A stretch of 64,000 nucleotides of DNA from Tetrahymena thermophila SB210. Lineage: Eukaryota; Ciliophora; Oligohymenophorea; Hymenostomatida; Tetrahymenidae. The notes under the pieces were generated by a model that had not been told where the DNA came from, did not search any database, and saw nothing but the letters and a program-made list of their open reading frames with translations. The translations under genes were made by a program, and so were the position numbers. Below are positions 7,140 to 62,575 of this stretch, piece after piece. The stretch lies in the NCBI RefSeq assembly GCF_000189635.1, contig NW_002476291.1, positions 6,907 to 70,906 on the forward strand. The letters are read 5' to 3'. Numbering within the stretch: position 1 is the first letter of the stretch; each line of letters starts with the position of its first letter.

Positions 7140-10100
7140 TCAAAAATGCTATATAAAAGAAAAATAAGCTTATCTATCAAATTAATCTCTTTTGTAAACT
7201 AAGTATTAAACTATTTTTTCTGCAGAATAAAATACTTTGATTAATTCTTAATCATTCCATATAAATGTTTCGTTTGCACATTCCTCAATAAAGTTGCTTC
7301 CTCTTCTATTAGAAAAAATAATAACTTATATATTAAATGCTGATAATAAATTGCACAAACTGAGAAATAAATTATTTTTAGATATTTAAATATTTTCAGT
7401 TTAATATAAAATTAGTTTTATGCTTAAATTATTTTCTGAGAATTACTCATCTTGTTATTAAAAATAATTATTTTTTTTAGAGGAACGAAATTTTCTTTCA
7501 ACTAATTTGTATCCTATTTATTCAGATATGAGTTAGCTCAGAGCTTATCTCATAAAATAATGAAAAGTTTAATTTTTTTAATTGAAATATTAATTCTGCT
7601 CTTTTTCATTTATGCTACTATCTCTGTGATTATCTTGGATCATTTAATTATTCTCACTATTGTTTTCTAAGTCAAATATATTTTTAAGCTAGAATTTAAT
7701 ATCTTATTGGCTTAAAAAATTTTTAATTGGGTTATTATTACACTATATTTGAGAATTCTATTGTGTTTTAATTTATTAAGATTCAATATGTTAATTTAAC
7801 TAATTAATTATTTCAGGATTCTTATCAATATTTTTTTGCTAATTTTCTTCATAAATACCAACAGAAGAATAAAATTTATGTTTTTCATTTGAAGAAAAAA
7901 GTTAATTTTTCTATTTAATGAAATAAAAGCTTTCAAAGTATTTAGTTTTATTTCGTTTTGGATTTTCTTATAAATTATTTTACTAACCAGTAAACTCGGC
8001 ACTTAAGTCTGATTCGAATAACTCTAAAGAATTCATTTGCATTTAAATATTAGTTATTTATGAATTTGATCTAAAACTCAATTTATAATGTTGAAGTTAC
8101 TAGTTTTGATTTAAATCAAATGATTCATTCTAAATAAAAATTTTATTTAAATCATTTTCAATTTATTATTTTTAAAATTTAAGCTAACTAGTTTTTATTA
8201 ATGGCATATATTATTAGACAGAGTTCCTTTATAAATCATTTAAAGAAATAGACACACTATCATCTTTTTTCACTAAAGCTTCTTCAATAATTTGTTTAAA
8301 TAGTTTTAGTTGATCAAAGGAAAAATTTTAATTATCATTTTCTTGATAATAATAATTATTTTATTTATTTAATGATATTTAAAGTATATCTTGCTATGGT
8401 TGGTTAATCTCAAATGAAATCACTATTTTAATATTTTTATTTTTATTAAATCTTTGTTATTGCTCTTTGAAAGATTTATCTTGGATCTTAAATTAATCAA
8501 ATATTTACTATAATTTAAAAATAATTCTGTAGGGCATATTTGACATTAAGCATTTGCTTTTTTCGAGAATAGATGTTAGAATATAAGCAGCCTTTTTATA
8601 TTACTTTGTAAATATTAGATATTCTGCATAATTAAACTATATAAATTCATATAAATTATTCGTAGGCACATTTAAAAGTGAGAGTTCATTGATTTGACTA
8701 GAAATCCCTTTTCCTCTATAATTGAATTGATTTGATTAATCTTATTTCTTAAATTTCTTACTTTAAAGAATACTCGATTTTTTTTATGATTAGTTTTTTG
8801 AATTAAAAATATTTTGAGAATATTCTAAAATCATTTGCTATGACATTATTGTAATATTATTGCTTTCATTATTGAAAAACTTAGGAGAATTTACATATTT
8901 TTTAGGAGAATCAATAACGTCGTAATTTCCAAAATTGCTATATTTGAGACCTGTCTTTTCAAAAATTCGTTCTTTTGTAATTTTTTTTTTTGGAGTACTG
9001 CATTCAATTATTTTTTTTTGGAATTGCTCATGCTAATTTTTAACTATTTTTTTAGATTGTTAAATTCTTTAATAAGCCTTTTTAAACTTATTCATATTAT
9101 AATAGCATTTAGACAATATACATTCACAAATTGCTTTTATATTTTCTTAGCATGGTAACATAGAATATAGCGGTAGTAATTCTTTTGTTAATTGTTTAAT
9201 TTCTTACCAGAAATTATAAAGGAATTTCTGTTATTAATCATTACTCAAGTCTTATTATTAAACAATCAAAGCGAAAATATAATTTATTTTTCTAAATATC
9301 AAATTTGAAATAAGTTCTTACAATTCTTGATATTACTCATCTTCTTTGTTAAGATGTTCTAATTAAATTATATTTTTAGTAAAAGTGCCATTACCAGATT
9401 TATTTTTTTAATTATTATTATTTAAAATTGAGGACTCAGTTAAGCCGATACGAGAATTTTTTTTTGGCTATTTTAATTTACTTTAATTTATTTATATGAT
9501 ATTAAATTGGCTTAACTGATTGGTATTTGATATATTAATACATTTATCTTTTGTTTTATTTTGATGTTCAAATGAAAATGTTTATCTATTTAAATTTGGC
9601 ATATTCTTATTTATATTTTAGTCGCTAAAAGAATATGGCTGCATAATATTTAGGAATTTAATATTTTCTGTTTTAGCACAAAACTCTTAAATTTCATACT
9701 TAGCACAGATAATTGAAGATTAAAAATGCTCCATAGACTGAAAGTAGTGTTTCTGATTTAACAAAATACATCCAATATTATTATGTGCTATTCCTAGTGC
9801 ATATTAATTATTAAATTTTTTAAAAAAGTTAACTTTTTTATTGAGATCAATTAGTGTTTTTCCTTCGTTTTCTATGAAAAAATGCTCACTCAAATATTAA
9901 AGCTATTAAAATAGATCATAAAAACTATTATAAAGCATCCTAGTTTCTTTCGAAAGAAATATTTCATCAGCATTTTATTAAAATTCAACAATAATTTCAT
10001 TTATATCACATAGCTTTTAAAGCAAGTTAATCCTTTACAGTATCTAAGTTAATTTATCAATAGGCTATTTAACCTAATTTTTGACAAGAAGTAAGTATTA

Positions 10101-12049
10101 AAATATTGCATAAAATAACAACAAACCAAGGATTGAAATACAAATAGAAGATATAATTAAGATAATGGTAGACAGTTAAATTAATTATTTAGTTTCTGCT
10201 CTTAAATTTTCATCTGAAATCATGCTAATTTATAAATAAACATATTCAAGTTATTGACCTTCATTTTCTAAGTAGCGAGTTATGTGCTAGGGGATATCAT
10301 CATATCCAATGATGGGACTAATAATTACTTTGTAAACTGACTAATTCCTCTTGTAATCAAAAATCACTTAATATTAGCTCTAATTCATCATTTATTTTAA
10401 AGTGGTTTTAGTGTTATTTGAGGTATTAAAAATCCATTTATTGTAGTTATTGCTGATCAAATTTTGAAAATACTATGATTACTATTAGTCCTCCAAAAAT
10501 TGAAGCTCAACGTTATAAAAATTATCTATTTATGTAATTGAAGAAAAATTGTACTCATCCATAGAGTTATAAACTATTTAAAGCGTCCTTGGGTCAATTA
10601 CATAATACTCTTCTGATGATTCGATAACATTTTAGAAATAGTTTGACAAATTAGAAAGCATAGCATCTAAGCATTAGATATGATGGATTTCTACTTTTTT
10701 AGTTTATGGATTTAAATATAATGATTTCTAGCATCCAAACTATGATAAATATGGTTCATGGCTTCCAAATGATAAATTAGGCGAATTCATGTAAAATGAA
10801 GTTTAATTAAGGCTATTTTAATACCAAAACCTAGTTCTAGGATCATATTAATGTTTTGCATTTATACTTTATTTATCAATCACATTAGATAGTGTCGTAT
10901 TAGAGAAAGTAGAAAAAAAAAACCCATCACCATACGCTTAAAAAATTGCCTTATAAGGAATTGCTTCAAATTCCTAATCCGCAAGGTAGACTCTGCTTTG
11001 ATACCCAATAGATCTTATGATGGGACTTACTTATGTATAGTTTTTAACAACTATTTTCTTTTGATGATCTAAGTTACTCATATACACTTCATCCTAAGTA
11101 TACCTATAAAATCAAATTAAATAATAAATTTTAGTGAAATCAGTTTTAAATTTGTAATCAATAAATGTTTTTATTAATTAAGTAATATTAAGGGGGATCA
11201 AAATTGTTCTAAATTTCAAAATACTATTGTATTAAGAAATCAATATAAAAGTTCATTGGCTCAATCTAATTAAAAAAAAAAATTTTGCATCTCTGGTTAT
11301 ATATAAGTATAAATATACATTGTACCGCTTTAATTTTTTAGGAGTTTAAATTAGAACTAATCAATAAAAAAGACTTAACTTGTTACATTATTTTTTATAT
11401 TCACTAAACAATTATATTTTATTATTAAGTCAATGTAAATAAATAACTTCGAGTTATTTTAAGAGCTCTATTTTTAGAATAAGGTAGTAAAAATACATAT
11501 TAAGGTTCTAATTTTTAAAATAATATTCTAACAGTTAGATATTTTAAAATTTTAAAAATATTTTATAAAAATAGATTGTTTGTTATATTGATTAAATGTA
11601 AGTTTCATAATTCTGCTTCATTAAATAAATATTGGATTTGTATAATTAAAATTTAATTTTATGATGGTTTACCAAGCATCTACTAAAAAGGAGTTTTTTA
11701 AAGCTAAATTTGTAAGAGCTTAGTCCTCAAAGTTAGCATATGCAAGGATATTGTTCAATAAAGATTTATGATGCATAGGATTATATATTACCTTTCCTCT
11801 AACCACTTTATCAGAAAATGAGTTAATGATGTTTAGGAAATAAGGGAATTTATAAATTTCTTTGCTCAAACGATATGATATGAATTGAGTATGAGAAGAG
11901 CTAAATTTTACTTTATCATTAAATAAATTATCACAATACTCTTATATATAAAGATTATTTTAATGAAGGGATATCAACAAACTCACAATCGCACTTAAAA
12001 AAGCTAGAGTTATAGGAACTATTATTAAGATAAATAACCTAATGAGCAT
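7140..12049 (-). CDS. dCache-TPR-vWA-like receptor, copy 2
   Basis: Exons 11673-12049 and 7140-11103 with a phase-2 intron at 11104-11672; total 1447 codons (1446 residues) ending at TGA. The first exon is 377 nt in all three copies. The order of parts matches copy 1: signal-anchor, dCache with the same YDPRTRFWY motif, second membrane helix, HAMP-like linker, TPR-like helices and degenerate vWA-like C-terminus. It is clearly the closest relative of copy 1; differences include small in-frame indels (for example an added LKNIF-containing segment near 7680 and a longer linker near 9560-9600). Spot checks at the indels kept the frame. Introns and flanks also align, so the duplication is recent relative to copy 3. 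Confidence 0.87.
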
Positions 12050-13125: not shown

Positions 13126-16100
13126 TCAAAAATGTTGGATGAAAGAAAAATGAGCATATCTGTCAAATTAATCTCTTTTGTATAATAAGTAGTGAATGAT
13201 TTTTTCAGTTGAATAAAATACTTTGATAATTTCTTAGCCATTAAATAGATATGTTTAATTTTCACATTACTCAATGAAGTTGTTTCCTCTTTTATGAGAA
13301 AAAATAATAACTTATACATTAAAGACTGAAAGTAAATTGCAAAACCTTTTAAATAAACTATTTTCTGAAATTTAAATCTACTTAGTTTAATAAAGAATTA
13401 ATTTTATGCTTAATTTATCATCTTGGAAAAATGAATTTTCTTATTAAAAAGAATTTTATTTTTTTGAAAATTTTTATTTACTTTCAACAAATTTAATTCC
13501 TACTTATTCAGATATGAGTTAGTTGAGAGCCTATCTCATAAAATAATAAAATGATTAATATCTTTAATTGTAATACTATTTTTGTTATTCTTCATAAAAA
13601 TCATTATCTTGTATTATGTTATTATTTTAGTTTTTATTTTCTTCTTCTATTACATTTATAAATTATAGCGTCAAAGGTTCTAGGCTTTGAAATGGTTTAA
13701 TAGAATTTTTATTAAAGTTGGTTCCATAATTAAATGGCATTGTAATTTATTTTTTATATTCAATATTTTAATCATTTAAAGTAGATTTTATTGGACTATT
13801 CTGAATTATTTTTTACTTGATTTCTTAAAAATTATCATTGGAAGAAAGATGATTTTTTTCACTAGCTGGATTAAGATATTTGTTGTTTTAAAAAAAACAA
13901 AAGTATGAAATTCTTTCAGTTGTATTTAATTGTATATTTTCTTATAAAGTATTCTACCATTCTATAAATTCGAAACTAGAATCAGATTCTAATTAATCAG
14001 AAGATTTTTATTGCATTAAAATATTAGTTGTTTATGTATTTGATCTATTACTAAATATTTAATATTGATTCAAGTAGATTTAATCAAATTTTAACTATTC
14101 ATTTTAAATAAAAATATTTTTTAATTAATTTAAAACTTTTTATTTTTATGATTTAAACTAACTAATCTTTATCAAAGGCATATATTATTCGACATAATTA
14201 ATTTGTAGATCATTTAATGAAATGGATACTCTATCATCTTATTTCATTAAAACTTCATCAAGAAGTTTTTAAAGGAGTAATAATTAGTGCAATGAAAAAT
14301 TTTTATTATCGATTTCATCATTTTTATTATGATTATTTTATTTATCTACAAATAGATTAAATTCATTTAGCTGTGGCTAATTTATTTCAAATGCTATTAC
14401 TATTTGAATATTCTTATTTTTATTAAACCTTTGCTATTGTTCTACGATAGATTTATCTTAAATTTTAAATGAATTAAATATTTATTACAATTTAAAAATG
14501 ATTCTATAAGGCATATTTGACATCAAGCTTCTGCTTTTCTCCAAAAGAAATGTCAGAACATAAGCAGCCTTTTTATATTATTTTCTAAATATTAAATACT
14601 CAGCATAATTAAGTTAAACAATTTCATATAAACTACTGATAGGGATATTTGAAAGTGAGAGTATATTTTTTTGGCTAGTAAACCTGTTTTCCCTTGGACT
14701 AAATTTATTTACTTTAGAATCTTATTTTTAAATTTTTTTATATTAAAATATATTTTTATTTTTTTGAGAATTCTTTTTTGGATTAAAATCAAAATACGAA
14801 TATTCTAAATTCATTTATTAAGATACATTTAAATTATTAAAACTTTAATTATTACTTTAAATCCTAGGAGAAAGCACATAGGTTTTATGAGTTTCTAAAA
14901 TATCAAATGTATTGTATTTCGTAAAACTATTGCTATTGATATTATTATTATTATTTTAGTTTTCGTTTGCAAAATTAATTTATTTTATGTTTAGTTTTTC
15001 ATCGCATGATCTTTGTTTTGTAATGTTTTTTTGCAAATTAGTCCTTTCAATGATACTTTTTTGTAATTACTCGTACTAATTTTTAACAATATTTTTAGAT
15101 TATTAAATTCTTTTTTGAGCCTTTTAGAATTTATTCATGTTATAATAGCATTTAGAAAATATGCATTCGCATACAGCTTTTATATTTTCTTAGCAATGCA
15201 ATATATTTACAAGAGGTATTAATTCTTTAGTTAGCTGCTTAATCTATCCCCAGAAGTTATATAGGGATTTTTGGTTTTAGTCATCATTCAAATCTTATTA
15301 TAATATAATCAAAGTTGTTATATAATTAAGTTTTCTAAAAACCAGATTTGAAATAAGTTCTTATAATTCCTGATATTATTCATCTTCTTTGCTGAGATAA
15401 TCTATTTAAATAGTATTTTTAGCTACAAAGCTATTTCTAAGTCTGTTTTTTTAACTACAATTAATTTCATTGATAATTTGGGACTCTCCCATGCCCATGC
15501 GAGGAATCATTTTTTATTATTTAATTTTACTCTAACTTGTTTAATTATTGTATATGCTTAATTGTTTGATTCTTGAAATACTTGCACATTTCTCTTTACT
15601 TCTATTTCGATAGGTAAAAGAATATTGTTTGATACTTGAATTTGCTATGTTATTTTATATATTTTATTCACTAAAAGAATATGGTTGTAGAATTTTTATG
15701 AAATGAATATTATCTGTTTGATCACAAAATTCTTAAATTTCATACTTAGCACAGATAATTGAAGATTCAAAATGCTCTAAAGATTAAAAGTAATGCTTCT
15801 AGTTTAATAAAATGCATCCAATATTATTATGCGCTATTCCTACAGCATAATAATTTTTAAATTTTTTAAAAAAGGAAACTTTTTTATTGAGATCAACTAA
15901 TGTTTTTCCTTCATTTTCAATAAAAAAATGCTCACTCAAATATTAGAGCTACTAAAATAATTCATAGAAACTGTTATAAAGCATTTTGGTTTCTTTTGAG
16001 AGAAATAAATCATCCGCATTCAATTAAAATTCAACAATAATTTCATTTATATCACATTATTTTTTAAGCAAATCAATTTTTTACAATATCTAAGTCAATT

Positions 16101-18109
16101 TATTTATAGGATTATAAACCTAATTTTTGACTAGAAGTAAATACTAATATATTGCGCAAACTAATAATAAACCATTTAATGAAATAAATATTGAAGCTAC
16201 AATTAATAGTATAGTAGAGAGTTTAATCAGTTAGTTAGTTTCTGCTCTTAAATCCTCATCTGAAATCATGTTAATTTATAAATAAACATATTCGAGTTAT
16301 TAACCTTTATTTCCTAAGTAGCGAGTTATATATTTTGGGATATCATCAAAACCAATGATGGGATTAATAATTACTTTGTAAACTGACTAATTTCTCTAAT
16401 AATCAAAAATCATTTAATATTAGCTCTAATTCACCATTTATTGTAAATTTGTTTTTGTGTCGTTTGAAGTATCAAAAATCCATTTATTATAGTTATTATT
16501 TATTAAATTTTTAAAATAGTTAGATTACTATTAATCTTCCAAAAATTAAAGCTCAACGTTATAAAAATTATCTATTTTTGTAATTGAAGAAAAATCATAT
16601 ACTTTCTTAGAATTAAAAACTATTTAAAATGTCCTTGGATCAATTACATAATACTACTTTGACGACTCAATGACAGTTTAGAAGTAAGTTGATAAATTAG
16701 AAATCATAGCATCCAAGCACTAGATATGATGTATTTCTACTTTCCTAGTATTTGGATTTAAATAAAATAATTTCTAGCATCCAAATTATGATAAATAAGG
16801 AGTTTCATTTCCAAGTGATAAATTTGGGGAATTCATATAAAATGAAGTTTAATTAAGATTATTTTAATACCACAATCTCTTTCTGGGATCATATTCATGT
16901 TTCGCATTTATATTTTTTTTATCAACTACTTAAGAAAATGATGTATTTGAGAATGTAGAAAAAAGAAACCCCTCATTATCTGATGCATAAAAAATTGTCT
17001 TAAACGGTATACCCTGAAATTAATTATTATTAAGAAACACTCTGCTTTGATATCCAATAGATCTTATTATGGGACTTATTTACGTATAATTTTAAATTAC
17101 TGTTTTTCTTAGATTGTCTAAGTTATTGATGTAAACTTCATCTGGTAAATACCTATTTTATTAAATTAAAGTATTTTTAATTAGATCAACAATAGATTTA
17201 TAATTCTTCAAATTTATAAGTTATAAGGGGGGTTATAAATAATTCTAGTTTTTTAAAATTTTCTATTTTAAATAAAGATATTTTGAAAAAATTTTCTAAA
17301 ACAAAAATTGAATTAACTAACACCTCTTCTAACATTAATTTAAAAGTCTTTAAAAGAAAGAAAGATTGAATATTAACTATTTGTCAAATAAAAACCATAA
17401 ATTTTGATTTCGTCACTTTAATTAATTAATTATGATTCTAAGTTTTTCTCAATTTTTAGTAAAAAAGATCTCCAATTATTTATTGCTATTAATTAGCACA
17501 AATAATTGTATTTAGATAAATAAAGTATTTTGATTCTTTTTTCTCTCGAACAATTTTTTGGGAGAAAGTAATAAAAATGAATTTAGTTTATTTTAAAAAA
17601 TGATAATCTAAATGTCATGAAAACTTTAAATATATTTTGCAAAATAATGCTTGTTTAGTCAAAAAAATGATAAAATTTATTTAATAATTCTTCTTTTATA
17701 AATTATTCTTAATTATAATCTTAATAATTTACCAACCATCTACTAAGAAGGTGTTTTTTAATACTAACCTTGTAAGATATTCATCCTCAAGATTAACAAA
17801 TGCAAGAATATTATTATAAAAAGATTTATGATGCCTTGGATTATATTTTACTTATCCTTGAATTACTTTATCTACAAATGAGTTAATAATATTTAAGAAA
17901 TAAGGGAATTTGTAAATTTCTTTGCTCAAGCGATATGAAATGTATTGAGTGTGAGAAGAGCTGAATTTAATTTTATCATTGAATAAATTATCAGAGTATT
18001 CCTATATATAAATATTATTGTAATAAAGGGCTATCAACAAACTAGCTATCGAGCTTAAAAAAGCTAGAGTTATAGGAACTATTATTAAGACAAACAATTT
18101 AATACGCAT
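13126..18109 (-). CDS. dCache-TPR-vWA-like receptor, copy 3 (divergent)
   Basis: Exons 17733-18109 and 13126-17152 with a phase-2 intron (17153-17732); 1468 codons (1467 residues). I translated it through and met no internal TGA. It is the most diverged of the three but keeps the first-exon length, intron position, two membrane helices, dCache motif YDPRKRLWY, TPR-like NNYYA-type helix (here KNYYAVGIAHNNIG) and C-terminal core. The vWA-like region shows strand IQIVIAFEINQP where MIDAS proteins have DxSxS, helix plus DDRVSISLND, then SIKLILYQ and VQVIIFS strands. Loss of the metal site is shared by all three copies, so it predates their split. Gln- and Asn-rich low-complexity stretches separate the vWA-like blocks. 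Confidence 0.88.
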
Positions 18110-21600: not shown

Positions 21601-21721
21601 ATATACTTAAGGAAGTGTTTAAAATATATTGAGTTAATGATTTAAATAAAATCCACTCAACATCATACAGTTATTATAATAATTAATAACAAATAAATAT
21701 ATATAAATCAAAGAAGTGCAA

Positions 21722-23311
21722 ATGAGATAGACATTGTAAGTCTTTTTAGTTTTATTTTCAACTTTTGCAATTATTAATTGTCTTAATAATGGCCTCGCTT
21801 TAACACCTGCTATGGGTTGGAATTCATGGAACCACTTTCATTGTGATATTAATGAAGACTTGATCAAATAGACAGCAGATGCTATTGTTAGCTCAGGATT
21901 AGCTGATGCAGGATATAAATATGTCAATCTTGATGATTGCTGGCAAATTTCAAGAGATTCTGAAGGATACATTCAAGAAGATAAAGCTAAAGTAAATTAA
22001 TAAACCTATTTTTATAATTGTCAAATGAACTTTTTTTCTTTTTATTCAATTCTTTTGAGTTTGTTCGACATATTTAAATTACTAAATAATCTTATTAATT
22101 ATTCATCATAATATTTTGTAGTTCCCTTCAGGAATAAAGGCATTGGCTGATTATGTTCATAGCAAAGGCTTGAAATTCGGTCTTTATAGTGATGCTGGTG
22201 ACTTCACTTGTGAACACAGACCTGGCTCTCTTGGCTACGAAGTGAAAGATGCTGAGAGATATGCAGAATGGGGAGTTGACTACTTGAAGTACGATAATTG
22301 CTACAATAATAATATTCCTCCTCAAGTCAGATATCCTCCTATGAGAGATGCCCTTAATTCTACTGGTCATCCTATTTATTTCTCTATGTGTGAATGGGGA
22401 GAATAAGATCCCGCAACTTGGGCCCCTGAAGTTGGAAATTCATGGAGAACAACTGGAGATATCTCAGATAACTATGATTCCTTCCTAAGCATTCTTGAAT
22501 AACAAGTAATATACTAACCTTGTATTTAGATTACACAAAATTCTTAATGTTTGCCTACTATTTATTTACTTAATTAGCAAATAAAGTAATGAATAAAATA
22601 GTAATAAATTAATCTAAATAGAAAAATAAAGATTTCTTTAATTAAATTAACTTTTTGAAAATAATTGCCATCAAAAAGTGTAAATATGTTGTCATCAAAT
22701 TTAATAAAAGAAAATATCTTACATTTATACAAAATATAATCAAATTGAAAGCATTTACTTTCTATCAAATTTGGTGATAATTAATTCGTGCTTATTTGTT
22801 TTTTATTTTACTAAAGGTTGGTTTAGAGAAGTATGCCCATCGCGGTGCTTGGAATGATCCAGATATGCTTGAAGTTGGTAATGGAGGTATGACTACTTAA
22901 GAATATGAAGCTCATTTTGCTCTTTGGGCTTTATTAAAAGCTCCTCTTTTGATTGGATGTGATGTAAATAACATGTCCCCTGATACCTTTAGAATTCTTT
23001 CTAATTAAGAAATAATCGCAATTAACTAAGATCCTCTAGGAATTTAAGGAAGAAGAGTTTTGAAGACAGATTAATATTAACTCTGGATTGGCACAATAGT
23101 AGATGGTATAGCAGTTATCCTCTTCAACACTTCTTCCTAAGATAGTGACTTATCCTTTACCTTCGAGCAAATTGGTATTACAGGATAAGCTATCATCAGA
23201 GATTTATACAAGCACTAAGACTTAGGAAAGTTTTCAAATTCTTTCTCAACAAATGTACCCACTCATGGAGTTGCTGTACTTAAAGTTGTCCCTCTTTCAT
23301 TTGCTTATTGA
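21722..23311 (+). CDS. Alpha-galactosidase, glycoside hydrolase family 27
   Basis: Three exons, 21722-21991, 22122-22505 and 22817-23311 (270, 384 and 495 nt, all phase 0), give 382 residues ending at TGA; introns are 130 and 311 nt. Residues 1 to about 22 form a signal peptide, so the enzyme is secreted or lysosomal and should hydrolyse terminal alpha-linked galactose. The mature part opens with [12 protein letters not shown] (residues 28-39), a GH27 hallmark. NLDDCWQ follows; YLKYDNC carries the nucleophile D148, and SWRTTGDI the acid/base D203 by homology to family members. [16 protein letters not shown] and KAPLLIGCD are also family landmarks. The C-terminal beta domain follows to the end. 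Length is normal for the family. It is the least AT-rich gene here and has no relative in the window. Confidence 0.97.
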
Positions 23312-40599: not shown

Positions 40600-42413
40600 T
40601 GTGCTCAAGTTTTTTATTTTAATTGATTTATTTTATTTAAAATTAATTAATTATCTTCCTATTTAGGATGAGCACTTACTTATATATAAAAAATTATTGT
40701 GTAAAGAAAAGGTAAATACTTAATAAAAACGATGATTACAAAGAATAGGCAACGAGAGATAGAATTAATATTTAGAAGTTTTTGTTTCAAGTATTAAATC
40801 TTTTACAATCTAAATTGAATGAAATGAACTAGAGGTTATTATTAAAGTAATTAAGAATTAGTCAGAAATTGGTAGCTATTGATATTTTTATATAATGATA
40901 ATTCTTTTACTAATATTTAATTAAAAAATAGACATTTAACTTTATAAATATGTCTTACTTAAAGCTATAAAGTTTATTCAAAGAGTTTGTTTGCTATCAA
41001 GTATTTTTACCTTAAATCTTAAAAAAATACCTAATCTACTCAAATAAAGTCAAAGTAATAATTTAACATTTTTTCTATTAAGCTAAGATAGGAGTTTGTT
41101 TTGATTTTATATCAAAAAAATTAATTAATTGATAAGATAGATATGCTTTTGTTTTTTAATGCATTGAAATCAATAATTTTGATAATTAAATAAAAGAAAT
41201 TAATATGAAAGTAACGTTGGTTCAATTAACCATCCATGAATTTTATTATTTGAAATATTTAAAAATGCAAATTGAAAGCGATTTATTATAAATTTCACTT
41301 ATCAGTTAATAAAATTATAAATTAGTTAGTTAGTTGAGGAGATATAGATTTTTTAAAATTGATAAAAGCGCATTTGTGCATAACCAATATTAAAGTATAG
41401 ATGTTATCTAAATAAAAAAATCAAATTTTAGTTAATCAATTTTTTTCTAACCAGATATTAAAATCTAAAATTATTTGATAATTAATTTTATTAAAAGGGT
41501 CTGCAATATAAATACAAAAGGATCTATCTGACCAGAGATACTAATGTAAATATATCAGCAATTATTAGCTAAAATTTACCATAAACTAATTAGATTATTA
41601 ATTTTTTAATTATATTCAATTAACATATAAATAAGTCCTTTTTAAATATGTTTAATAGATTAAGATAAATTCATGTAACATCTTTTTAAAATCCTAAACA
41701 AATAAACAAAATATTTTATAACTTTTAAATATCTCTCATGTCTCTTTTTATAAATGCGTAAAACTTAACTAAAAATAATTATTCAATCTTCATTTTTATG
41801 AGTGATTGATTTATCAACGAATTTTATTTCATCTCCAATTATAGACAGTTTGCTTACCAAATATATAATATTAAAAAAATAAATTGATTTACTATTATAA
41901 ACTCTTCTTTCTAATTTTTATTGTGAAAATAGCGCATAAGGATAAACTTTCAAACTTTTTTATATAAAATAATAAAAAAGCCAATTCATAAATTTTAATA
42001 TTCGATTACTGTATTACCTCTTAACTCGATTCTCGCAAATAAAAATTTTTGGTTTCGAATAGTAAGGATAATCTTCATCAAAAACAAGATCTTTGACAAT
42101 TTTTTCTTAGCCATCTTATTTAGAATATATTAATATTTAGTTTAACTTATAAAATTATTATAAAATATCTGTTATAAATTATAAAAATATATTCCATAAG
42201 AGCAATAATAGCTTTTTTACTATCAAAATTAAATTTTGATAAAAGAAAAATTTTATTTGATTTATTTGAAAAAAATGATGGAAATAATTTTAATTATATT
42301 TAAAAAAAGAAATATTTGAATATTATTTAATTTATAAGTTTAATACTATTTTATATAATAATATATATTAATAGAAATAATATCTAAAATATTATTAAGT
42401 AGATATCAATTTA
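40600..42413. other. Shared 5' flank of secreted gene copy A
   Basis: No gene is seen. About 40600-41960 aligns almost throughout with 42841-44180, 54257-55600 and 56839-58020. Best conserved are the accagatattaaa.tctaaa block, tacaaaaggatct..ccagag, aacaaaatattttata.ctt and ataaattga.t.actat. No frame is conserved across copies, so this is candidate regulatory or untranscribed DNA. The end is 3' flank of the pseudogene. Confidence 0.55.
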
Positions 42414-42840
42414 TCAGCATTCACTTTATTCTCCCAATGCCTTTTAAATCGCTTAGGAAATCTAGCCTGTATATATCATTTTAGTCTAGGTTAAAATATT
42501 TAATTTTACNNNNNNNNNNNNNNNNNNNNNNNNNNNNNNNNNNNNNNNNNNNNNNNNNNNNNNNNNNNNNNNNNNNNNNNNNNNNNNNNNNNNNNNNNNN
42601 NNNNNNNNNATTTAAGTGTTTAGCCGAACGAAACAAACTGAGGATTTAAAAATCCTGTTTTGTTGATATATATGTATTAATTAGTTATCAGCACCTCTTA
42701 GTAGCCCATATTTAGAATAATTTTAGACTAATTATTGTCATTAGATATTAGGCTTTGATATTTATTTAATGAGCTAAAAGTTAAAATGTATGTTCACTAA
42801 GGTAATCATAGAGATTAGTATTAAAACAACCAATTTTCAT
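42414..42840 (-). pseudogene. Broken copy of the secreted four-cysteine gene
   Basis: It runs from an ATG (42838-42840) to the family's terminal TGC TGA (42414-42419). The start MKIGC.. is out of frame with the family: the signal-peptide coding sequence tttaatactaatctctatga is present but shifted relative to the ATG, and downstream pieces (an NSLNK-like part and the CQQN-like core) lie in different frames. The middle is hidden by the 100-N gap. The 3' part still encodes the LGEQSEC-type tail. At least two frame changes are visible, so it is not expressed as the family protein unless the assembly is wrong here. Confidence 0.75.
42510..42609. other. Assembly gap, 100 N
   Basis: Exactly 100 N, a common placeholder for a gap of unknown size. 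It falls inside a repeated gene family, where collapse or misjoining is likely. Confidence 0.98.
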
Positions 42841-44815: not shown

Positions 44816-47723
44816 TCATAATTTTTTTTCAAATACAACTAATCTTTTTGATTTAAGACACTTGCTTATTACTTTGAATTTATATGATTCATTGATTTAG
44901 TTAAAACTTTTATAAAAAATTTGTATATATTTAAATAAATATTTAATAAAATAAAATTTTAAATTATTTCTTAAATTAATAAATAAATAAAATAAAATTA
45001 GTGGAAAAAAAGGATAAAAAAAAAATCAAATAAAATCTATCAAATAAATTCAAAGAGCTTTTTTGTTTAATATTCATTTTTATAGCTAAAAATATCAATC
45101 TTAAATAAATAAACTGCTTTTACCAAAGATAAATTGTCAAATTTGAGAGATTAACGCAATTAGCTAAAGCAGAACTTAAGCCTGATCCACCTTAGTCTCC
45201 AATTTAATTTTCGCTTTTTAAATATTGAAGAAAAAAATATCATTAAATAGTTGATTAGAATGAAAAAATGAAGAAAAAACATGAAATAATAAGATTAATT
45301 AAATAATAATAAAAGCAAAAGTTGAAAATAAAATAATTAGTTAAATTAACAATGAAAGAATAAAAAAAACAAGTAAGATAAAATGAAAAAGAAAAAAGAG
45401 CTATTATTGTTTTAAATTAGTTTTTATTATTAAAAATATCACAATACAAAACAAATAAACTATTTTTACTCAAGGTTAAGTGTCAAATTTGAGAGCTTAA
45501 TGCATTTTGCTAAAGCAGTACCTAAGCCTGATACACCTTTGTCACCAATTTAATTGTCACTTTTTAAATTTTGAAGAAAAAATATATTAAATAGTTAATT
45601 AGAATGAAAAAATGAAGAAAAAATATGAAATGATAAGATTAATTAATAATAAAAGTAAAAGTTGAAAATAAAATAATTAGTTAAATTAACAATGAAAGAA
45701 AAAAAAAACAAGTAAGATAAAATGAAAAAGAAAAAAGAGCTTTTATTGTTTTAAATTAGTTTTGTAATTAAAAATATCACAATCCAAAACAAATAAACTA
45801 TTTTTACTCAAGGTTAAGTATCAAATTTAAGAGATTAATGCATTTTGATAAAGCAGAACTTAAGCCTTATACACCTTCATCACCAATTTAAAAAAAACTT
45901 TCCAAAAAATCATAAACAGTGTCTAAAATAAGGGGGGTTTTCGAGAAAACTATCAAACCAAAAACCAATTTTAAACACTTATTATAAATTATAATTACTT
46001 TTAAGATGTATTTCTGAGTGCATTTATGTGTGCGAGTTTATCTTATCTTATCTTATCACCAATTTAATTGCGACTTTTTAAATATTGAAGAATAAATATA
46101 TAATTAAATAGTTAATTAGAACGAAAAAATGAAGAAAAATATGAAATAATAAGATTAATTCATTAATAATAAAAGCAAAAATTGAAAATAAAATAAATGA
46201 TAATTTAATTTAGCAATGAAAGAAGAAAAAAAACAAGAACAATAAAAAGAAAAAGAAAAAAGAGCTTTAATTGTTTTAAATTAGTTTTTATAATTCAAAA
46301 TATCGCAATCCAAAACAAATAAACTGTTATTACTAAAGATGAAGTGTTAAATTTGAGAGATTAATGCAATTTGCTATACCAGAACCTAAGCCCGACGCAC
46401 CTTAGTAACCAATTTTATTGTAACTTTTTTAATATTGAATAAAAAATAAATAATTAAATAGTTAATTAGAAGGAAAAAATGAAGAAAAAATGTGAAATAA
46501 TAAGATTAATAATAAAAGTAAAAGTAGAAAATAAAATGATGAGCTAAATTAACAAAAAAGAAAGAACAAAAAAGCAAGCACAATAAAAAGAAAAAGAAAA
46601 AAGAGCTTTATTGTTTTAAATTAGTTTTTATAATTAAAAATATCAACAATCCAAATCTATTAAACTGTTTTTACATAAGGTTAAGCCTCAAATTTGAGAG
46701 ATTAATGCAATTTGCTAAAGCAGAACCTAAGCCTGATATAGCTTAGTCACCAATTTAATTGTAACTTTTTAAATATTGAAGAAAAAATATATAATTAAAT
46801 AGTTAATTAGAAGCAAAAATGAAGAAAAAATATGAAATAACAATAAAAGTAAAAGTAGAAAATAAAATGATGAATTAAATTAACAAAGAAAGAACAAAAA
46901 AAAGCAAGCACAATAAAAAGAAAAAGAAAAAAGAACTTTATTGTTCATAATTAGTTTATATAACTAAAATTATCAGAATCCAAAACAAATAAATTGTTTT
47001 TACTCAAGTTTAAGTGTCAAATTTGAGAGATTAATGCACTTTGCTAAAGAAGAAACTAAGCCTGATGCACCTATTGAATCAATTTAATTGTAACTTTTAA
47101 ATATTGAAGAAAAAATATATAATTAAATAGTTAATTAGAAGGGAAATATGAAGAAAAGTTGGACGTAAAATGATGAGTTCAATTAATAAAGAAAAAACAA
47201 AAAAAATCAAGCAAAATAAAAAGAAAAGGAAAATAAATCAAATAAATTAAAAGAGCTTTAATATTTTAGATAAACTTTGATAATTAAAAATATTACAATC
47301 CAAAATAAATCAACTATTTTTATTTAGTGTAAATGTTAATAGCAAAAAATGAAGAAAAAATATCTAATAATAAAAAATGAATAATAAATAAATAATTAAA
47401 AATTTAAATGAAAATTAAGTCGAAATAGCTAAAAATTTTTGCTTTAATAAAAATCAATGAATAATGAATGATGAGAGTTTCTAATATAAAAATTATTTTT
47501 TGAAATAAATTGAAAATTAAATATAAAAAAAATATTAATAATAATAAAAATAATATTTATAAATTAAATATACATCAGATCAATATGGAGAACCTAATGA
47601 GATAAAAGTTAAGAGTTTAAAAACTTTTTTTATAAAAATATATAAATTTAAAAGATATTAATAAATAAATAAATAAATAATTACTTCTTCTAATTTTTTA
47701 TAATATTTAATCTATTACATCAT
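44816..47723 (-). CDS. LRR gene 3: six repeat exons, one hit by a LINE end
   Basis: Exons in order: 47685-47723 (MMQQIKYYKKLEE), 47574-47623 (50 nt), repeats 47004-47093, 46675-46764, 46334-46423, an interrupted repeat 45808-46073, 45470-45559, 45124-45213, and terminal 44816-44906. Leaving out the interrupted exon, the sum is 630 nt, 209 residues, with all junctions phase-compatible and no internal TGA. Repeats follow NxIGDxGASGLGSALANC, then INLSNLTLxL. The tail holds SKCLKSKRLVVF. The insertion brings a TGA if read through, so the exon must be skipped or the protein ends early. A splice-donor-like relic near 47310 marks a lost repeat. Paralogue of the gene at 48550-52525; function as an LRR scaffold is inferred. 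Confidence 0.78.
45892..46054 (+). mobile_element. LINE-like 3' end, 163 nt, with 13-nt target duplication
   Basis: Foreign sequence sits inside an LRR exon between two copies of ATCACCAATTTAA (45879-45891 and 46055-46067). It ends with gagtgcatttatgtgtgcga, then gttt and the short tandem tail atcttatcttatctt. The same gagtgcat..tgtgcgag end followed by a different simple repeat is found at 49254-49514, so both are 3' ends of one element family inserted by target-primed reverse transcription. This copy is strongly 5'-truncated and non-coding. It lies antisense to the host gene. Confidence 0.78.
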
Positions 47724-48549
47724 TTATTTTTTTTTACTTTTAAAAATATTGAATAGCAATTTATGGAATTTAATTAATTATAAATGGATAAAAAGAACAT
47801 AAAACATAATAAGTAATTATCAAATATTAATTTAGAAAATTTGGTTTTATGAAGAGATATCACAGAAAAATAAAATTAACATTCAATATTTAATTTTGAT
47901 ATTGGTCTTTAAAATATATACTCAAAAATATAGTAAGTATGAGAGATGGGTAGATCGTTCGTCATATTTGAAAAAATTTTAGTAATTAATAAATGTTATT
48001 AAATTTTATAAAAATAATTTTTATAAGTAGATTCTTATGTTTTAGAGTAATTAATTATAGGAATATTTATAATATCTCATATTATTCTCTAATCCGATTA
48101 GTTTTTTTTTTTACAAGCACGTGTTATTTAGGTAAATATATATATTGTATCCACCAAATAAGTAGATTTACACTTACTTAAATAATTTTTTAATAAATAG
48201 AATAGTACAATTTGATTTCTCCCTAAATTTGTAACCCCTTAAATTCCTTAATATGATTGATGGATACTATTTAAGATTAAAATCTAATTGTAATATAAAA
48301 TCTTGCATTTATATTATTTAATAAGTTATAATATAACATTAAAAATTTCAAATGATTTGATCCTTTTTTATTAATTATAAGTTATTTATTAACTTACAAA
48401 AATATGAATGATATTTATAAATATAAAAACAGTAATAAAATCTATCTATCTATGTATCTATATTTTAGTTTAAAAAAACTTTTTCAAAAAATTATGTAAT
48501 AATTCAAATATTTAATATTTATTCATCCTTTTTTGCCACTTATTTATCA
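47724..48549. other. Spacer between LRR genes 3 and 4
   Basis: No gene is seen. 47724-47990 aligns with 52526-52790 (5' flanks of the two LRR genes), including a gatgggtag..tcatattt block that may hold promoter elements. 48430-48549 aligns with 44660-44815 (3' flanks), including a tctatctatctatgta tract. Confidence 0.55.
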
Positions 48550-51500
48550 TCAGAAATATTTTCCAAAGACAACTAATCTTTTTGATTTAAGACACTTGCT
48601 TAAAACTTTGAATTTTTGTTATTTATTCATTTAGTTACCACTTTTATTATAAATTTGTGTAAATTTTTAAAAAATATTAAATAAAATAAACTCTTAAATT
48701 AAAAATTATTTCTTAAATTATTAAATAAATAAATAAAATAACATTACTGTAATAAAAAAAATAAATCAAAGAAATTCAAGGAGCTTTTTTGTTAAATATT
48801 CATTTTATAGTTAAAAATATCACAATCTTAAACAAATAAACTGTTTTTACTTAAGATCAAGTGTCAAATTTGAGAGATTAATGCACTTTGCTAAAGTAGA
48901 ACCTAAGCCTGATGCACCCATTCCACCAATTTAATTGTATCTTTTTAAATATTAAAGAAAAAATAAATAATTAAATAGTTTATTAGAATGAAAAAATATA
49001 AAATAATAGGATTAATTAATTAATAATAAAAGCCTATTTTAACAAAGAAAGAACAAAAATAAGCAAGCAAGCAAGCACAATAAAAAGAAAAAGAAAAAAT
49101 AGCTTTTTTTGTTTTAAATTAGCTTTATAATTAAAAATATCACAATCCAAAACAAATAAACTGTTTTTACTCAAGTTAAAGATTCAAATTTGAGAGATTA
49201 ATGCAATTTGCTAAACCAGTACCTAAGCTTGATGCACCTCCATCACCAATATTCCAAATCTGATAGGTGGTAAAGAGGAGGCCCCATTCTGAACAGAAGA
49301 TCTGGAATACAAATGGGAAGCGAGCATAATGCGTAGTCAAATCATGGAAGATTAGTAGAAATGCCATTAGGGTGTAGGTGACCCTTCCCTTCTAATATAT
49401 TACCCACAATTATATATAAATAAATTGGTATACGTATAATAATAATGTATAAGTAATTATATATAGGGCCCCTATCCCGAGTGCATGTCACCATGTGCGA
49501 GTATGTATGTATGTATCACCAATATTATTTCCACTTTTTAAATATTGAAGAAAAAATATATAATTAAATAGTTAATTAGAAGGAAAAAATGAAGAAAATA
49601 TGAAATAATAAGATAGATTAATTAATAATAAAAGCAAAAGTTGAAAATTGAATGATGAGTTAAATTAACAAACAAAGAATGAACAAAAAAAGCAAGCAAG
49701 CAATCACAATAAAAAGAAAATGAAAAAAGAGCTTTTATTTTTTTAAATTAGTTTTATAATAAAAATATCACAATCCAAAACAAATACACTGTTTTTACCC
49801 AAGTTTAAGTGTCAAATTTGAGAGATTAATGCACTTAGCTAAAGCATAACCTAAGCCTAATGAACCTTCATCACCAATATAATTGCCACTTTTTAAATAT
49901 TGAAGAAAAAATATATAATTAAATAGTTAATAAGAAGTAAAAAATGAAGAAAAAATATGAAATAATAAGATTGATTAATTATAAAAGCAAAAGTTGAAAA
50001 TAAAATGATGAGTTAAATTAACAAAAAAAAACAAAAAAAGCAAGCAAGCAAAAAGAAAAATGAGCTTTAATTGTTTTAAAATAAATTTTATAATTAAAAA
50101 TATCACAATCCAAAACAAATAAACTGTTTTTACTAAAGGTCAAGTGTCAAATTTGAGAGATTAATGCACTTAGCTAAAGCAGAACCTAAGTCTGATGCAC
50201 CCATTGCACTAATTTAATTGCCTCTTTTTAAATATTGAAGAAACAATATATAATTAAATAGTTAATTAGAAGGAAAAAATGAAGAAAAAATATGAAATAA
50301 TAAGATTAATTAATTTATAATAAAAATAAAATTTGAAAATTAAATGATGAGTTAAATTAACAAAGAAAGAAAGAACAAAAAAAAGCAAGCGAGCACAATA
50401 AAAAGAAAAAGAAAAAAGAGCTTTAATTTTTTTAAATTAGTTTTATAATTAAAAATATCACAATCCAAAACTAATAAACTGTTTTTACTAAAGATAAAGT
50501 GTCAAATTTGAGAGATTAATGCAATTTGCTAAACCAGTACCTAAGCCTGATACACCTTTGTCACCAATTAAATTGTAACTTTTTAAATATTGAAGAAAAA
50601 ATATGAAATAATAAGATTAATTAATTAATAATAAAAGCAAAAGTTGAAAATTTAATGATGAGTTAAATTAACAAAGAAAGAAAGAATAAAAAAAAGCAAG
50701 CAAGCGCAATAAAAAGAAAAAGAAAAAAGAGCTTTAATTGTTTTAAATTAGTTTTATAATTAAAAATATCACAATCCAAAACTAATAAACTGTTTTTACT
50801 AAAGATAAAGTGTAAAATTTGAGAGATTAATGCAATTTGCTAAACCAGTACCTAAGCCTGATACACCTTCGTCACCAATTAAATTGCCTCTTTTTAAATA
50901 TTGAAGAAAAAATATATAATTAAATGGCTAATTAGAAGGAAAAAATGAAGAAAAAATATGAAATAATAAGATTAATTAATTAATATAAAAAGCAAAAGTT
51001 GAAAATTTAATGATGAGTTAAATTAACAAAGAAAGAAAGAACAAAAAAAAGCAAGCGAGCACAATAAAAAGAAAAAGAAAAAAGAGCTTTTATTGTTTTA
51101 AATTAGTTTAATAATTAAAAATACCACAATCCAAAACAAATAAACTATTTTTACTAAAGGTTAAGATTCAAATTTGAGAGATTAGTTAGAAGGAAAATAT
51201 GAAGAAAAAATATGAAATAATAAAATTAATTAATTAATAATAAAAGCAAGAGTTTAAAATTAAATGATGAGTTAAATTATCAAAGAAGAAACAAAAAAAA
51301 GCAAGCAAGCACAATAAAAAGAAAAAGAAAAAAGAGCTTTTATTGTTTTAAATTAGTTTTATAATTAAAAATATCACAATCCAAAACAAATAAACTGTTT
51401 TTACTAAAGGTAAAGTGTCAAATTTGAGAGATTAATGCAATTAGCTAAAGCAGAACCTAAGCCTGAAGCACCTTCGTCACCAATTTAATTGTCACTTTTT

Positions 51501-58246: not shown

Positions 58247-60076
58247 TCAGTTTATAAAATCATTCACTATTTTTACATCCATTAAAATATATTTGCTTCC
58301 TTAACTGCAAATTCCAAGATACAATCTTAGATCATCAAATTATGTTAGTTTCTGTTTATATTAATCCTGTAATCCTAGCTTACACTCGTAATTAGGATAA
58401 TCTAACACTTCTAAAATCTATTCTTTCAAACACAATCTGAGTTCTATCATATTCTCTCCACTTGTTTTAAATTCTGCTCCCTTTAATTATTTATCAATAC
58501 CATAATTATAAAATTTAATTACAGATTAATTATTTTTCTTTAAGCCACAGCTTAATAACTCTTAAAATCCACAATTAAAATTAGCGTTTGAATTTCTCAT
58601 TAGACCTATCATAAAATCATGGCCTTCATTTAGACTTTCAACCTTTATCCTAAAAATATATTTCTAATCTTTTTATAAATTTGAATTTGATATACAATTC
58701 ACATAATAATCACTATTATTTAATTTTTCAATTTCATAATAACCACTTTCTTTTTTATTTACCACACAATCTCTCTACCCATTATTTCGCTAAGTCACAA
58801 AGAATTTTAAATCTAAATTGGGTAAACTTTCCTCATATAAAGCATAATAAAACCTTTTATCATTCAAATTTCTGTAGAAATCAAATTTATTTTTGTCAAT
58901 AAAACTATTAGTGAAATTAATCTATTTTAAGAAAGGTTTTACATCAACTAAGAACTTTTCAAACTATTAAATGAACTCTTACCTCAAGAAAATCATTTTA
59001 GAATCTACAATTTATGTCATTTATTTTATTTCTAAACTATCCTTTAATTCCTATACAAATTACTATTCCCCTCTCGACAAAGCTATTGAATGCTTAACAT
59101 ATTCTTCTATCAAATTTATTTTTTCCTCGCTAATTTAGGAAAAGTCAATTTATTCTTTATTCTCCTTGAAAACGGCTGCTTTGAAAGTAAACTACTTAAG
59201 TAGAGGGTTTATACTTTAAAGATTCTCACTTAGCTTACTTAAGAATTAATCAGAACAAAAGTTTGATTTATTAGAAACAAGCTTCATGATTAAGTCAGAT
59301 GTTAGTTTTAAATCTACATTATAATTATTTTGGTTTGTAATATTAGCTTCGATATGATTTCTAGTATTATTATGATTTGTGCTATTAACTTCAGGAATAT
59401 CTAAATTGAAGAAAGAAATTTGGTCAATAAAAGTAAGTAATTACTATTTAATGATTTGAGGATATTCCATATTGAAATTAGTTCTCAATTAATTTGCTTA
59501 GGTAAGGAGATTTTACAATAATTCAGTATTTTTATCTTTTTGAGACTCCATTTGTGAGATAAATTGTTTACAGAGAGTTGAATGATCTTGGAGGTTATTT
59601 GATTATTCGTTATTAAGAAGCTACTTAAACTAAAGAATATTTGAAATTTCTTAATATCTTTTGATGATTTGCTATGTATCAATAGGATATTTCAAGGCTT
59701 CATTGATCATCTTTTTTTAGATGACATCTATTTTATTTAAAAATTCTTCTTTGAATTGATGAAAGAAATCTGTAATTTGCTTGACATAGTCAAGTGAAGA
59801 TTAATTTGATGTAAGATCGATGAGATCTTAGATGATTTGATAGTTGTTGACTGGCGGCCATTTTGGGGTGATGTTAGTGTCTGCTTCTTAAAAAATCTAG
59901 TCAATCATAAGATAGTTGATAGATTTAAATTGAAGATCGTGATTAAAACAGGAAGAGCAGTAAAAGAGAGGTTTAGTTGAAATAGGTTGTGTTAGAACAT
60001 CATTTACTTAAATAAATTGAAGGTTTTTATTTGGATGCTTATTGCATTTAAGATTTTAAATGGTAATTTTATCCAT
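58247..60076 (-). CDS. B-box-like/coiled-coil protein with SPRY-like C-terminus, copy 1
   Basis: An intronless frame of 610 codons (609 residues) in the ciliate code, ATG to TGA. The N-terminus has C11-x2-H14, then YCSSCFNH with C40, C43 and H46, a B-box-like zinc site. Residues about 100-400 are helical and rich in charged and Gln residues (QITDFFHQFKEEFLNKIDV, QLLTFIDQISFFN, ENKEQIDFSQISEEK), predicted coiled coil. The last 170 residues look like a beta-rich domain with GYYEIEKL, YIFRIKVES, FMIGLMRNSN and LRLYLGICSQGSKYI, reminiscent of SPRY/B30.2. Together this is a TRIM-like order without an N-terminal RING. Cytoplasmic assembly or ubiquitin-linked recognition is only inferred; without a RING it may not be a ligase. 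Confidence 0.85.
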
Positions 60077-60436
60077 TTATAAGATTAGAGTAAGAAGATA
60101 TATTTTGAATGTTTTTTTAATGATTTATTTTGATAATTAATTTGAGTTTTAGATTCGCTTTTTAGAAAAAAGCAATGATACTTATTTGAGTATCTTATAA
60201 AAAAATGTTAAAATTCTAACAGATAATAAAACATGGCTTAATACTTACATAATATAATTTTGTTTTTAATTATAATATCATAAAATTAAAATTAATATTA
60301 AAAAAATTTAAAAAAAAATTCTAAATTTTTTTACATTTTCTAAAAATGGGTCTTAATTAATGAGAGTATACAATATATTACTTTACTTCTTTATTTCTGG
60401 TTTAAGTGCATACATAAAATATTTATAAAATTTAAT
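60077..60436. other. Spacer between TRIM-like copies 1 and 2
   Basis: 360 nt of A/T-rich sequence with long A runs. No gene is seen; it must carry the 5' flank of copy 1 and the 3' end of copy 2. Confidence 0.6.
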
Positions 60437-62251
60437 TCAATTTATAAACTCATTCACTATTTTTACATCCATTAAAACTAATTTGCTTCCTTTGCTAAAA
60501 ATGTCAAGATAAAATCTTAGATCATCAAATTATATAAGCTTCTCTTTATATTTATCTTCTAATCCTAGCTTATACTCATAATTAGGAAAGTCTAACACTT
60601 CTAGAATCTACTCTTACAAACACAATCTGAGTTCTATCATATTCTCTCCACTTGTCTTAAATCCTACTCCCTTTAATTATTTATCAATACCATAATTATT
60701 AAATTTAACTACAGATTGATTTAAGTGACAGCTTAAATATTCTTTATATCCTCCAGTTTAATCAGCATTTGAACTTCTCATTAGTCCAATCAAAAAAGAA
60801 TTACCTTCATTTTGAAGTTCAGCTTTTATCCTAAAAATATACTTCTAATCTTTTTATAAATTTGTATTTGATATACAATTCACATCAGAATCATTATTTA
60901 ATTTTTCAATTTCATAATAACCATTTTCTTTTTTATTTACTACTTAATCTCTCTACCCATTATTATACTAAGTTGCAAACAATTTTAGATCTAAATTGGG
61001 TAAACTTTCCTAAAATAAAATATTCAATTTGTTATCTTTCAAATTTCTGAAGAAATCAAATTTATTTTTGTCAGTGAAAGTATTAGTGAAATTAATCTAT
61101 TTTAAGAAGGGTTTTACATCAACTAAGAACTTTTCAAACTATTAAATGAACTCTTACCTCAAGAAAATCATTTTAGAATCTACAATTTAAGTCATTTATT
61201 TGATTTCTAAACTATCTTTTACTTCCTATTCATATTACTATTCCCCTCTTGACAAAGCTAATGAATGCTTAACATATTCTTCTATCAAATGTATTCTTTC
61301 CTCACTTATCTTGGAAAAGTCAATTTATTCTTTATTCTCCTTGAAAACTGCTGTGTTCAAAGTAAACTATTTAAGTAGAGGATTTATACTTTAAAGACTC
61401 TCGCTTAGCTTGCTTAAGAATTAGTCAGAGCAAAAGTTTGATTTGTTAGAAACAAGCTTCATGATCAAGTCAGATGTTAATTTTAAACCTCCAATTTAAT
61501 TGTTTTGATTTGTAATATTAGTTTCCAAATAATTTCTAGCATTATTATAATCTGTACTATTAACTTCAGGAATATCTAAATTGAAGAAAGAAATTTGGTC
61601 AATAAAAGTAAGTAATTACTATTTAATGATGTGAGGATATTCCATATTGAAATTTGTTTGCAATTAGTTTGCTTAAGTAAGGATATTTTACAACAATTCG
61701 GTGTTTTTATCTTTTTGAGACTCCATTTGTGATATAAATTGTTTACAGAGAGTTGAATGGTCTTGCAAGTTATTTGATTATTCGTTATTGAGAATTTACT
61801 TAAACTAAAGAATGTTTGAAATTTCTTAATATCTTTTGAGGATTTGCTATGTATCAATAGGATATTTCAATGTTTCATTGATCATCTTTTTTTAGATAAC
61901 ATCTATTTTATTTAAAAACTCTTCTTTGAATTGATGAAAGAAGTCTGTAATTTGCTTGACATAGTCAAGTGAAGATTAATTTGATGTTAGATCAATGAGA
62001 TCTGAGATGATTTGATAATTGTTGACTGGCGGCCATTTTGGGATGATATTAGTGTCTGCTTCTTACAAAATCTGGTCGATCATAAGATAGTTGATAGATT
62101 TAAGGTGAAGATCATGATTAAAACAGGAAGAGCAGTAAAAGAGAGGTTTAGTAGAAGTAGGTTGTGTTAGTACATCATTTACTTAAATAAATTGAAGGCT
62201 TTTATTTGGATGCTTATTGCATTTAAGATTTTAGATGGTAATTTTATCCAT
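60437..62251 (-). CDS. B-box-like/coiled-coil protein with SPRY-like C-terminus, copy 2
   Basis: 605 codons (604 residues), intronless. I read most of the frame and found no internal TGA. It keeps the zinc motif CNKHP..YCSSCFNH, the coiled-coil region and the C-terminal FMIGL-equivalent domain (here SFLIGLMRSSN). It is very close to copy 1 across its whole length; the N-terminal 250 residues are the most similar part, including the run VQQITDFF-like segment. Differences cluster in the C-terminal domain, the expected recognition surface. Confidence 0.85.
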
Positions 62252-62575
62252 ATATTAAAATTAGTGTGAGAAAAGATACTATATATGTATTGTTGATAAT
62301 TTATTTTGGTAAGAAATGTTATTTTTATTATTTATTATGGTTTGTCTGCAATTAAAAAAAAGAAAGATATTAATTTCAATATTTGATAAAAAAAAATGAA
62401 TATTCTAATAAATAAGGCAATAAGAATATAAATGTATATGTAGAGTATTTGAACAATTTTAATTAAAAATAATCAATAGAAATTTACTAAATATCAAATA
62501 GTTTTTAAAATTTTTAAATATCAAAAATAAATATATCTATCGGACAACATATTTTTATTATATATAAAATTTAAT
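62252..62575. other. Spacer between TRIM-like copies 2 and 3
   Basis: 324 nt of A/T-rich sequence with no feature recognised. It is not clearly alignable with the first spacer, so the duplicated unit is little more than the gene. Confidence 0.55.

Follow-up and report, generated by a model that had tools for sequence, protein, structure and literature searches.

A retroelement family that very probably targets the start of a 90-bp leucine-rich repeat exon in Tetrahymena thermophila

We analysed a stretch of 64,000 nucleotides from Tetrahymena thermophila SB210 (contig NW_002476291.1, positions 6,907 to 70,906; hereafter the window), in which two insertions with a common 3′ end interrupt leucine-rich repeat (LRR) exons at the same site. 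This end was also searched for in the whole genome (101 Mb, 445 contigs). The results make it very likely that a family of site-specific non-LTR (long terminal repeat) retroelements targets the 90-bp LRR exon near its beginning, and that elements of two kinds use the site, remnants of long interspersed elements (LINEs) and a short interspersed element (SINE) with a tRNA-like head. A link between LINEs and LRR sequences is known already; what appears to be new is the site in the exon, together with the SINE.

The first insertion, element 1, occupies 45892–46054 and is flanked by two identical copies of the 13-bp sequence ATCACCAATTTAA (45879–45891 and 46055–46067). The second, element 2, occupies 49254–49514 and is flanked by two identical copies of the 12-bp sequence ATCACCAATATT (49242–49253 and 49515–49526). 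Each pair carries the spelling of its own LRR unit (ATTTAA versus ATATT), as expected of true target-site duplications. Both elements have the conserved 3′ hairpin, GAGTGCAT-TTATG-TGTGCGAG at 46016–46036 in element 1 and GAGTGCAT-GTCACCA-TGTGCGAG at 49479–49501 in element 2, and a simple-repeat tail, of ATCTT units (46037–46054) and ATGT units (49502–49514), respectively. All these features are on the forward strand. On the reverse strand, the exon interrupted by element 1 is split into its first 19 nt (46055–46073, with the native acceptor AG at 46074–46075) and a 71-nt donor-side part (45808–45878); the exon interrupted by element 2 is split in the same way into 49515–49533 (native acceptor AG at 49534–49535) and 49171–49241. 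The two LRR arrays of the window are 82–87% alike, as duplicate genes would be, and each insertion interrupts a different unit. An earlier note on this DNA had proposed two insertions with a common end at one exon site, which is confirmed here, and had taken them to be independent, which is supported. The same note called them two LINE ends, and this holds for one of them. Only element 1, whose 5′ end is AAAAAACTTTCC, looks like what is left of a LINE-type element, either a short remnant or a truncated copy; element 2 derives by 5′ truncation from a SINE of 390 bp whose head is tRNA-like (SINE-A).

In gene sense, the site reads ATT-GGT-GAT and ends at base 19 of the exon. In all nine uninterrupted site matches at 45–52 kb, an AG lies 19 nt upstream and a GT 71 nt downstream, so the exon is exactly 90 bp; in the whole window, 13 of 24 site matches fit this spacing, the rest including chance matches and interrupted units. 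Neighbouring sites are mostly 311–356 bp apart, and the long frames of the window are open if TAA and TAG are read as Q. This reading of TAA/TAG, the 90-bp LRR exons and the site spacing indicate a Tetrahymena-like, somatic genome. That the target is abundant, as had been suggested, is borne out by 1,011 exact occurrences of ATCACCAATTTAATT in the genome versus 3 of the reversed sequence. The length of 90 bp makes the exon frame-neutral and symmetric, and the target would be safe for the host if the exon can be skipped.

Using GAGTGCAT-N(3–12)-TGTGCGAG as a query, we have identified 169 shared ends genome-wide (81 + 88; 115, 6 and 48 by loop length), whereas the reversed control gave none. By place, 154 of the 169 were listed, and the loci that were read contained 91 distinct 3′ junctions. 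Among these, 83 are within 2 mismatches of CACCAATTTAAT, compared with 882 of 20,000 windows of 48 bases drawn at random from these LRR-rich loci; 0, 1, 2, 3, 4 and 5 mismatches were found in 41, 27, 15, 6, 1 and 1 junctions. Of the eight junctions with more than 2 mismatches, seven resemble diverged LRR starts on inspection by eye, and the remaining one is off site. An exact CCAATTT is found 8–38 nt downstream of the hairpin in 115 of the 169 ends (reversed control, 0), a strict spelling by which variants and long tails are missed. The antisense reading of the site is IGD in 58 of the 91 junctions under a lax alignment, whose threshold is also passed by 539 of 5,000 random stretches.

The elements that abut the site in one orientation have five different tail units (ATGT, ATTCT, ATTCC, ATCTT and ATTCA), and in 37 SINE copies ATGT units span the 15 to 85 nt between the hairpin and the site core. 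Copies with two clear ends have duplications, mostly of 12–13 bp. The two bases just before the core vary among copies (AC, GT, TG, AT) and are the same on both flanks, which locates the nick to within one or two bases; for some copies, the tail is another possible origin of these bases. A 6–7-bp RNA hairpin (GUGCAU/AUGUGC) with a changing loop is common to the five ends folded, and it is conserved rather than unusually stable. These patterns could in principle reflect a general preference of Tt.REP, a non-LTR retrotransposon of Tetrahymena, for LRR introns or for the pericentromeric and subtelomeric chromatin in which they lie, with the exact site being no more than the outcome of a loose AT-rich preference. 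Introns of LRR genes are favoured targets according to the text available from Xiong et al. 2019 (PMC6564038). However, the junction lies at one place inside the exon and site variants are carried in both duplications, and we regard a general preference of this kind as extremely unlikely.

Element 2 has relatives at 38 further places with 98–100% identity over nearly the full length and at one further place in part, among the best 40 of 46 candidates. A common head stands upstream in these relatives, and the window copy is without it through 5′ truncation, as are two other truncated copies (L010 and L065). The head contains an exact B box (GGTTCGAATCC) and an A-box-like sequence (GGCTAAGCGG), assigned by eye against the consensus, and 42 exact heads were found genome-wide. 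Could element 2 instead be just the 3′ part of a longer element, a LINE with a family of its own? It has a LINE-like 3′ hairpin and is 5′-truncated, and five other copies of the head (L096–L100) run into other sequence. Nevertheless, 30 of the 32 full-length copies are 390 bp long, from GGGCTAAG to GCGAG, with the same tRNA-like head adjoining the left duplication, and a LINE fragment is a very improbable explanation. One of these five heads, L098 (C129:114000–114600), is joined to an ATTCT-type LINE tail. It may represent a second SINE type; two neighbouring insertions with loss between them are possible as well, because the flanking copies differ by one base.

The bodies of the SINE are 98.7–100% identical (mean 99.4%, 435 equal-length pairs), and the copies are young. 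Tail lengths and 5′ A-runs differ among them, which together with the near-identical bodies argues for many recent separate insertions. At the 5′ side, 36 of 38 distinct SINE-head junctions are within 2 mismatches of the site core and the other two are at 3, whereas 512 of 20,000 random windows pass the same threshold. The left and right flanking 11-mers are identical in all 32 full-length copies; among 10,000 shuffled pairings, the mean is 9.6 and the maximum 17. Private site variants, such as ATCCCGAATTT and ATCATTAATTT, are matched on both flanks. Scripted scoring gave 12–13-bp duplications in 22 of 33 SINE heads, the other 11 being unscored, mostly through extra A's at the 5′ join.

A site could also be inherited rather than targeted, if unequal crossing-over or gene conversion had carried one or a few insertions along with the LRR units. 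The arrays are reported to recombine heavily in the text available from Xiong et al. 2019 (PMC6564038), and some pairs of copies would fit such spreading: in at least one tandem pair, L012 and L070 in C50, the flanks are alike over the stretch read, and L071 and L072 have one flank in common. This explanation is largely refuted by the private duplications, which match within a copy and differ between copies. Furthermore, the flanking units are more diverged than the SINE bodies, though 45 right-flank pairs are at least 94% alike, and nine loop spellings besides that of the SINE, as well as the five tail units, are found at the same site. We therefore consider an inherited site very unlikely. 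Targeting of the LRR exon start, by contrast, is what the 3′ junctions, the 5′ junctions and the matched duplications strongly support, in agreement with the proposal in the earlier note of a nick site matching a repeated host exon. Copies at unrelated sequences, the contrary case named there, amount to one of the 91 junctions.

The segment 45808–45878 together with 45879–45897 still forms a 90-nt exon bounded by AG and GT, the AG coming from element 1 (CT at 45898–45899); element 2 is one base off. In 12 of the 32 full-length SINE copies, the antisense 5′ end provides an AG placed precisely 19 nt ahead of the point where GAT ends, and an in-frame replacement acceptor is left by 15, with about 10.7 expected from phase alone. 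As 15 of 32 is little above one in three, we make no claim that frame-preserving splice rescue is under selection.

Among 54 non-SINE copies, the common LINE 5′ end AAAAAACTTT is located at the site in four (L001, which is the window's own, L008, L079 and L084); a fifth match to this pattern, L080, lies away from the site. L002, the copy most closely related to element 1, has the site at its left and a different 5′ end. Excision of germline DNA may have left the somatic copies as remnants, which could account for the missing left duplications of many LINE-type copies; autonomous copies are probably germline-limited. The genome has one RVT_1 match (L075, G000:C134:182753–183433 and flanks), in which an APE-like endonuclease (23.8 bits, below the 24.5 cut-off) and a reverse transcriptase are found in one 942-aa frame in the ciliate code. 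Within the 3.7 kb read, neither strand has a hairpin half, ACCAATTTAATT or the LRR site, and L075 was rejected as the LINE partner as far as seen. Could it be a retained or domesticated LINE ORF2?

Several observations weigh against a single site-specific family. About 78 of the 169 ends are outside the base-by-base reading, and one 3′ junction (the second copy in L006, C311:4439) is by eye not at an LRR site. Many non-SINE copies have no clean left duplication, which is clear only in some. The SINE and the LINE-type families have only the hairpin region of about 20 nt in common, and this hairpin is not unusually stable in the five ends folded (z −0.97 to −1.68). The SINE head is not called a tRNA by ARAGORN or Rfam. 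The earlier note had also looked to a full-length copy and its endonuclease class; no autonomous copy of any hairpin family was seen in this genome, somatic by its structure, so the endonuclease and the pairing of LINE and SINE are putative.

Insertion might proceed as follows. The endonuclease of the partner LINE would nick the gene-sense strand just after ATT-GGT-GAT, at exon base 19, as the junctions suggest; on LRR-exon DNA, a single nick would be expected right after ATTGGTGAT. The nicked 3′ end would then serve as the primer for target-primed reverse transcription of an RNA recognised by its 3′ hairpin, and a cut in the opposite strand about 13 bp away would give rise to the duplication. 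The SINE would borrow the LINE machinery via the common hairpin, with the LRR arrays providing about 1,000 exact targets.

A further possibility, which we put forward tentatively, is that the SINE is strictly specific for one base of this coding-exon family and guides itself to it. A transcript made by RNA polymerase III (Pol III) would run through the tail and the copied target and end at the T-run of the LRR acceptor, and the 3′ end of this RNA would pair with the nicked exon strand and prime insertion; the Pol III step is speculation. TTTT is absent from all 32 SINE bodies, a weak indication because mononucleotide shuffling of a single body gave 1,192 sequences out of 5,000 that are also without it. 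CTTTT is found at +17 from the start of the site core in 31 of the 32 full-length copies, being the antisense of the LRR acceptor. In the window, the CTTTTT directly downstream of the site (49534–49539, forward strand), antisense of the acceptor tract, is a candidate Pol III terminator. Against self-guiding, an earlier TTTT occurs at +6 or +11, inside the site, in 14 of the 32 copies.

Elsewhere in the window, three tandem similar-looking frames of 1,313, 1,323 and 1,428 aa are located at 246–4187, 7140–11111 and 13126–17412 on the reverse strand, and two tandem, closely similar long frames of 676 and 712 aa at 58247–60277 and 60437–62575 on the same strand. Frames at about 21641–23311 on the forward strand resemble alpha-galactosidase by eye. 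A run of unknown bases, seen as X in translations, lies within 42320–42666.

The site turns a reported association between LINEs and LRR sequences in a ciliate into a nearly base-exact target rule, with a SINE following the same rule, and suggests that a gene family serves as the landing pad of a site-specific retroelement system. With a symmetric, phase-preserving exon and about 1,000 exact copies of the site, the mobile element and the fast-evolving gene family may drive each other. With its defined site, hairpin and tail, the system is also small enough for testing how non-LTR retrotransposons choose a site and how SINEs recruit them.

Among known elements, Tt.REP, reportedly described in Fillingham et al. 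2004, is one of the closest. In the text available from Xiong et al. 2019 (PMC6564038), where Tt.REP is described, 76% of REP copies are beside LRR units and 169 copies of its 54-bp tail are retained in the T. thermophila macronucleus (MAC); the main text has no match for 'target site', 'SINE' or 'tRNA'. Like Tt.REP, the present elements include LINE 3′ tails that have stayed in somatic DNA beside 90-bp LRR exon units. Unlike the intron insertions reported there, they are found at one place inside the exon with a duplication of 12–13 bp. Our 169 ends were found with another pattern, which also covers the SINE, and the agreement in number may be coincidence. In the literature searched (mainly titles and abstract openings, with few subscription papers), we found no SINE fixed on one coding-exon base, no Tetrahymena SINE, no site-specific SINE, and no non-LTR element targeting LRR or other coding exons. 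The available text of Hamilton et al. 2016 (PMC5182062) reports few non-LTR elements and has no word starting with 'SINE'.

Putative SINEs of the Paramecium germline are short non-coding repeats annotated as putative non-autonomous class I elements (PMC5405496, in the text available). The present SINE is likewise a short repeat in a ciliate, and differs in its tRNA-like head and fixed site, 'tRNA' and 'target site' not being mentioned in that text. tRNA-derived SINEs with LINE-like 3′ ends have a tRNA-like promoter head, an unrelated body, a 3′ end shared with a LINE and a simple-repeat tail (PMC3747384, in the text available), and the present SINE matches them in its unrelated body, LINE-shared 3′ end and simple-repeat tail, and has a candidate promoter head of this kind. 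It is also short, has many copies and, as weak evidence, contains no internal Pol III terminator. Ordinary SINEs are dispersed, whereas the SINE described here keeps to a single site, its core being present with at most 3 mismatches at each of the 38 distinct 5′ junctions read. R2 SIDEs are short non-autonomous R2 derivatives in ribosomal DNA (rDNA) with the site specificity of their partner. The present SINE would similarly be a non-autonomous element sharing the site specificity of a partner, but has a tRNA-like head and lies in coding exons.

Site-specific non-LTR retrotransposons include R1, R2, R4, Tx1, SLACS/CRE, NeSL and TRAS/SART. Such elements enter a multicopy host sequence at a single point, end in simple 3′ tails and make a short duplication (13–14 bp for R4 and R1). 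Their known targets comprise RNA genes, spliced-leader exons, telomeres and microsatellites; Kojima and Fujiwara 2004, going by its title, reportedly deals with multicopy RNA genes and microsatellites. The elements described here share with this group the position of nearly all copies read at one sequence-defined site in one orientation, a simple 3′ tail and a short target-site duplication (in the LINE-type copies clear only in some), and differ from R1, R2, R4 and the others in having a family of protein-coding exons as their target.

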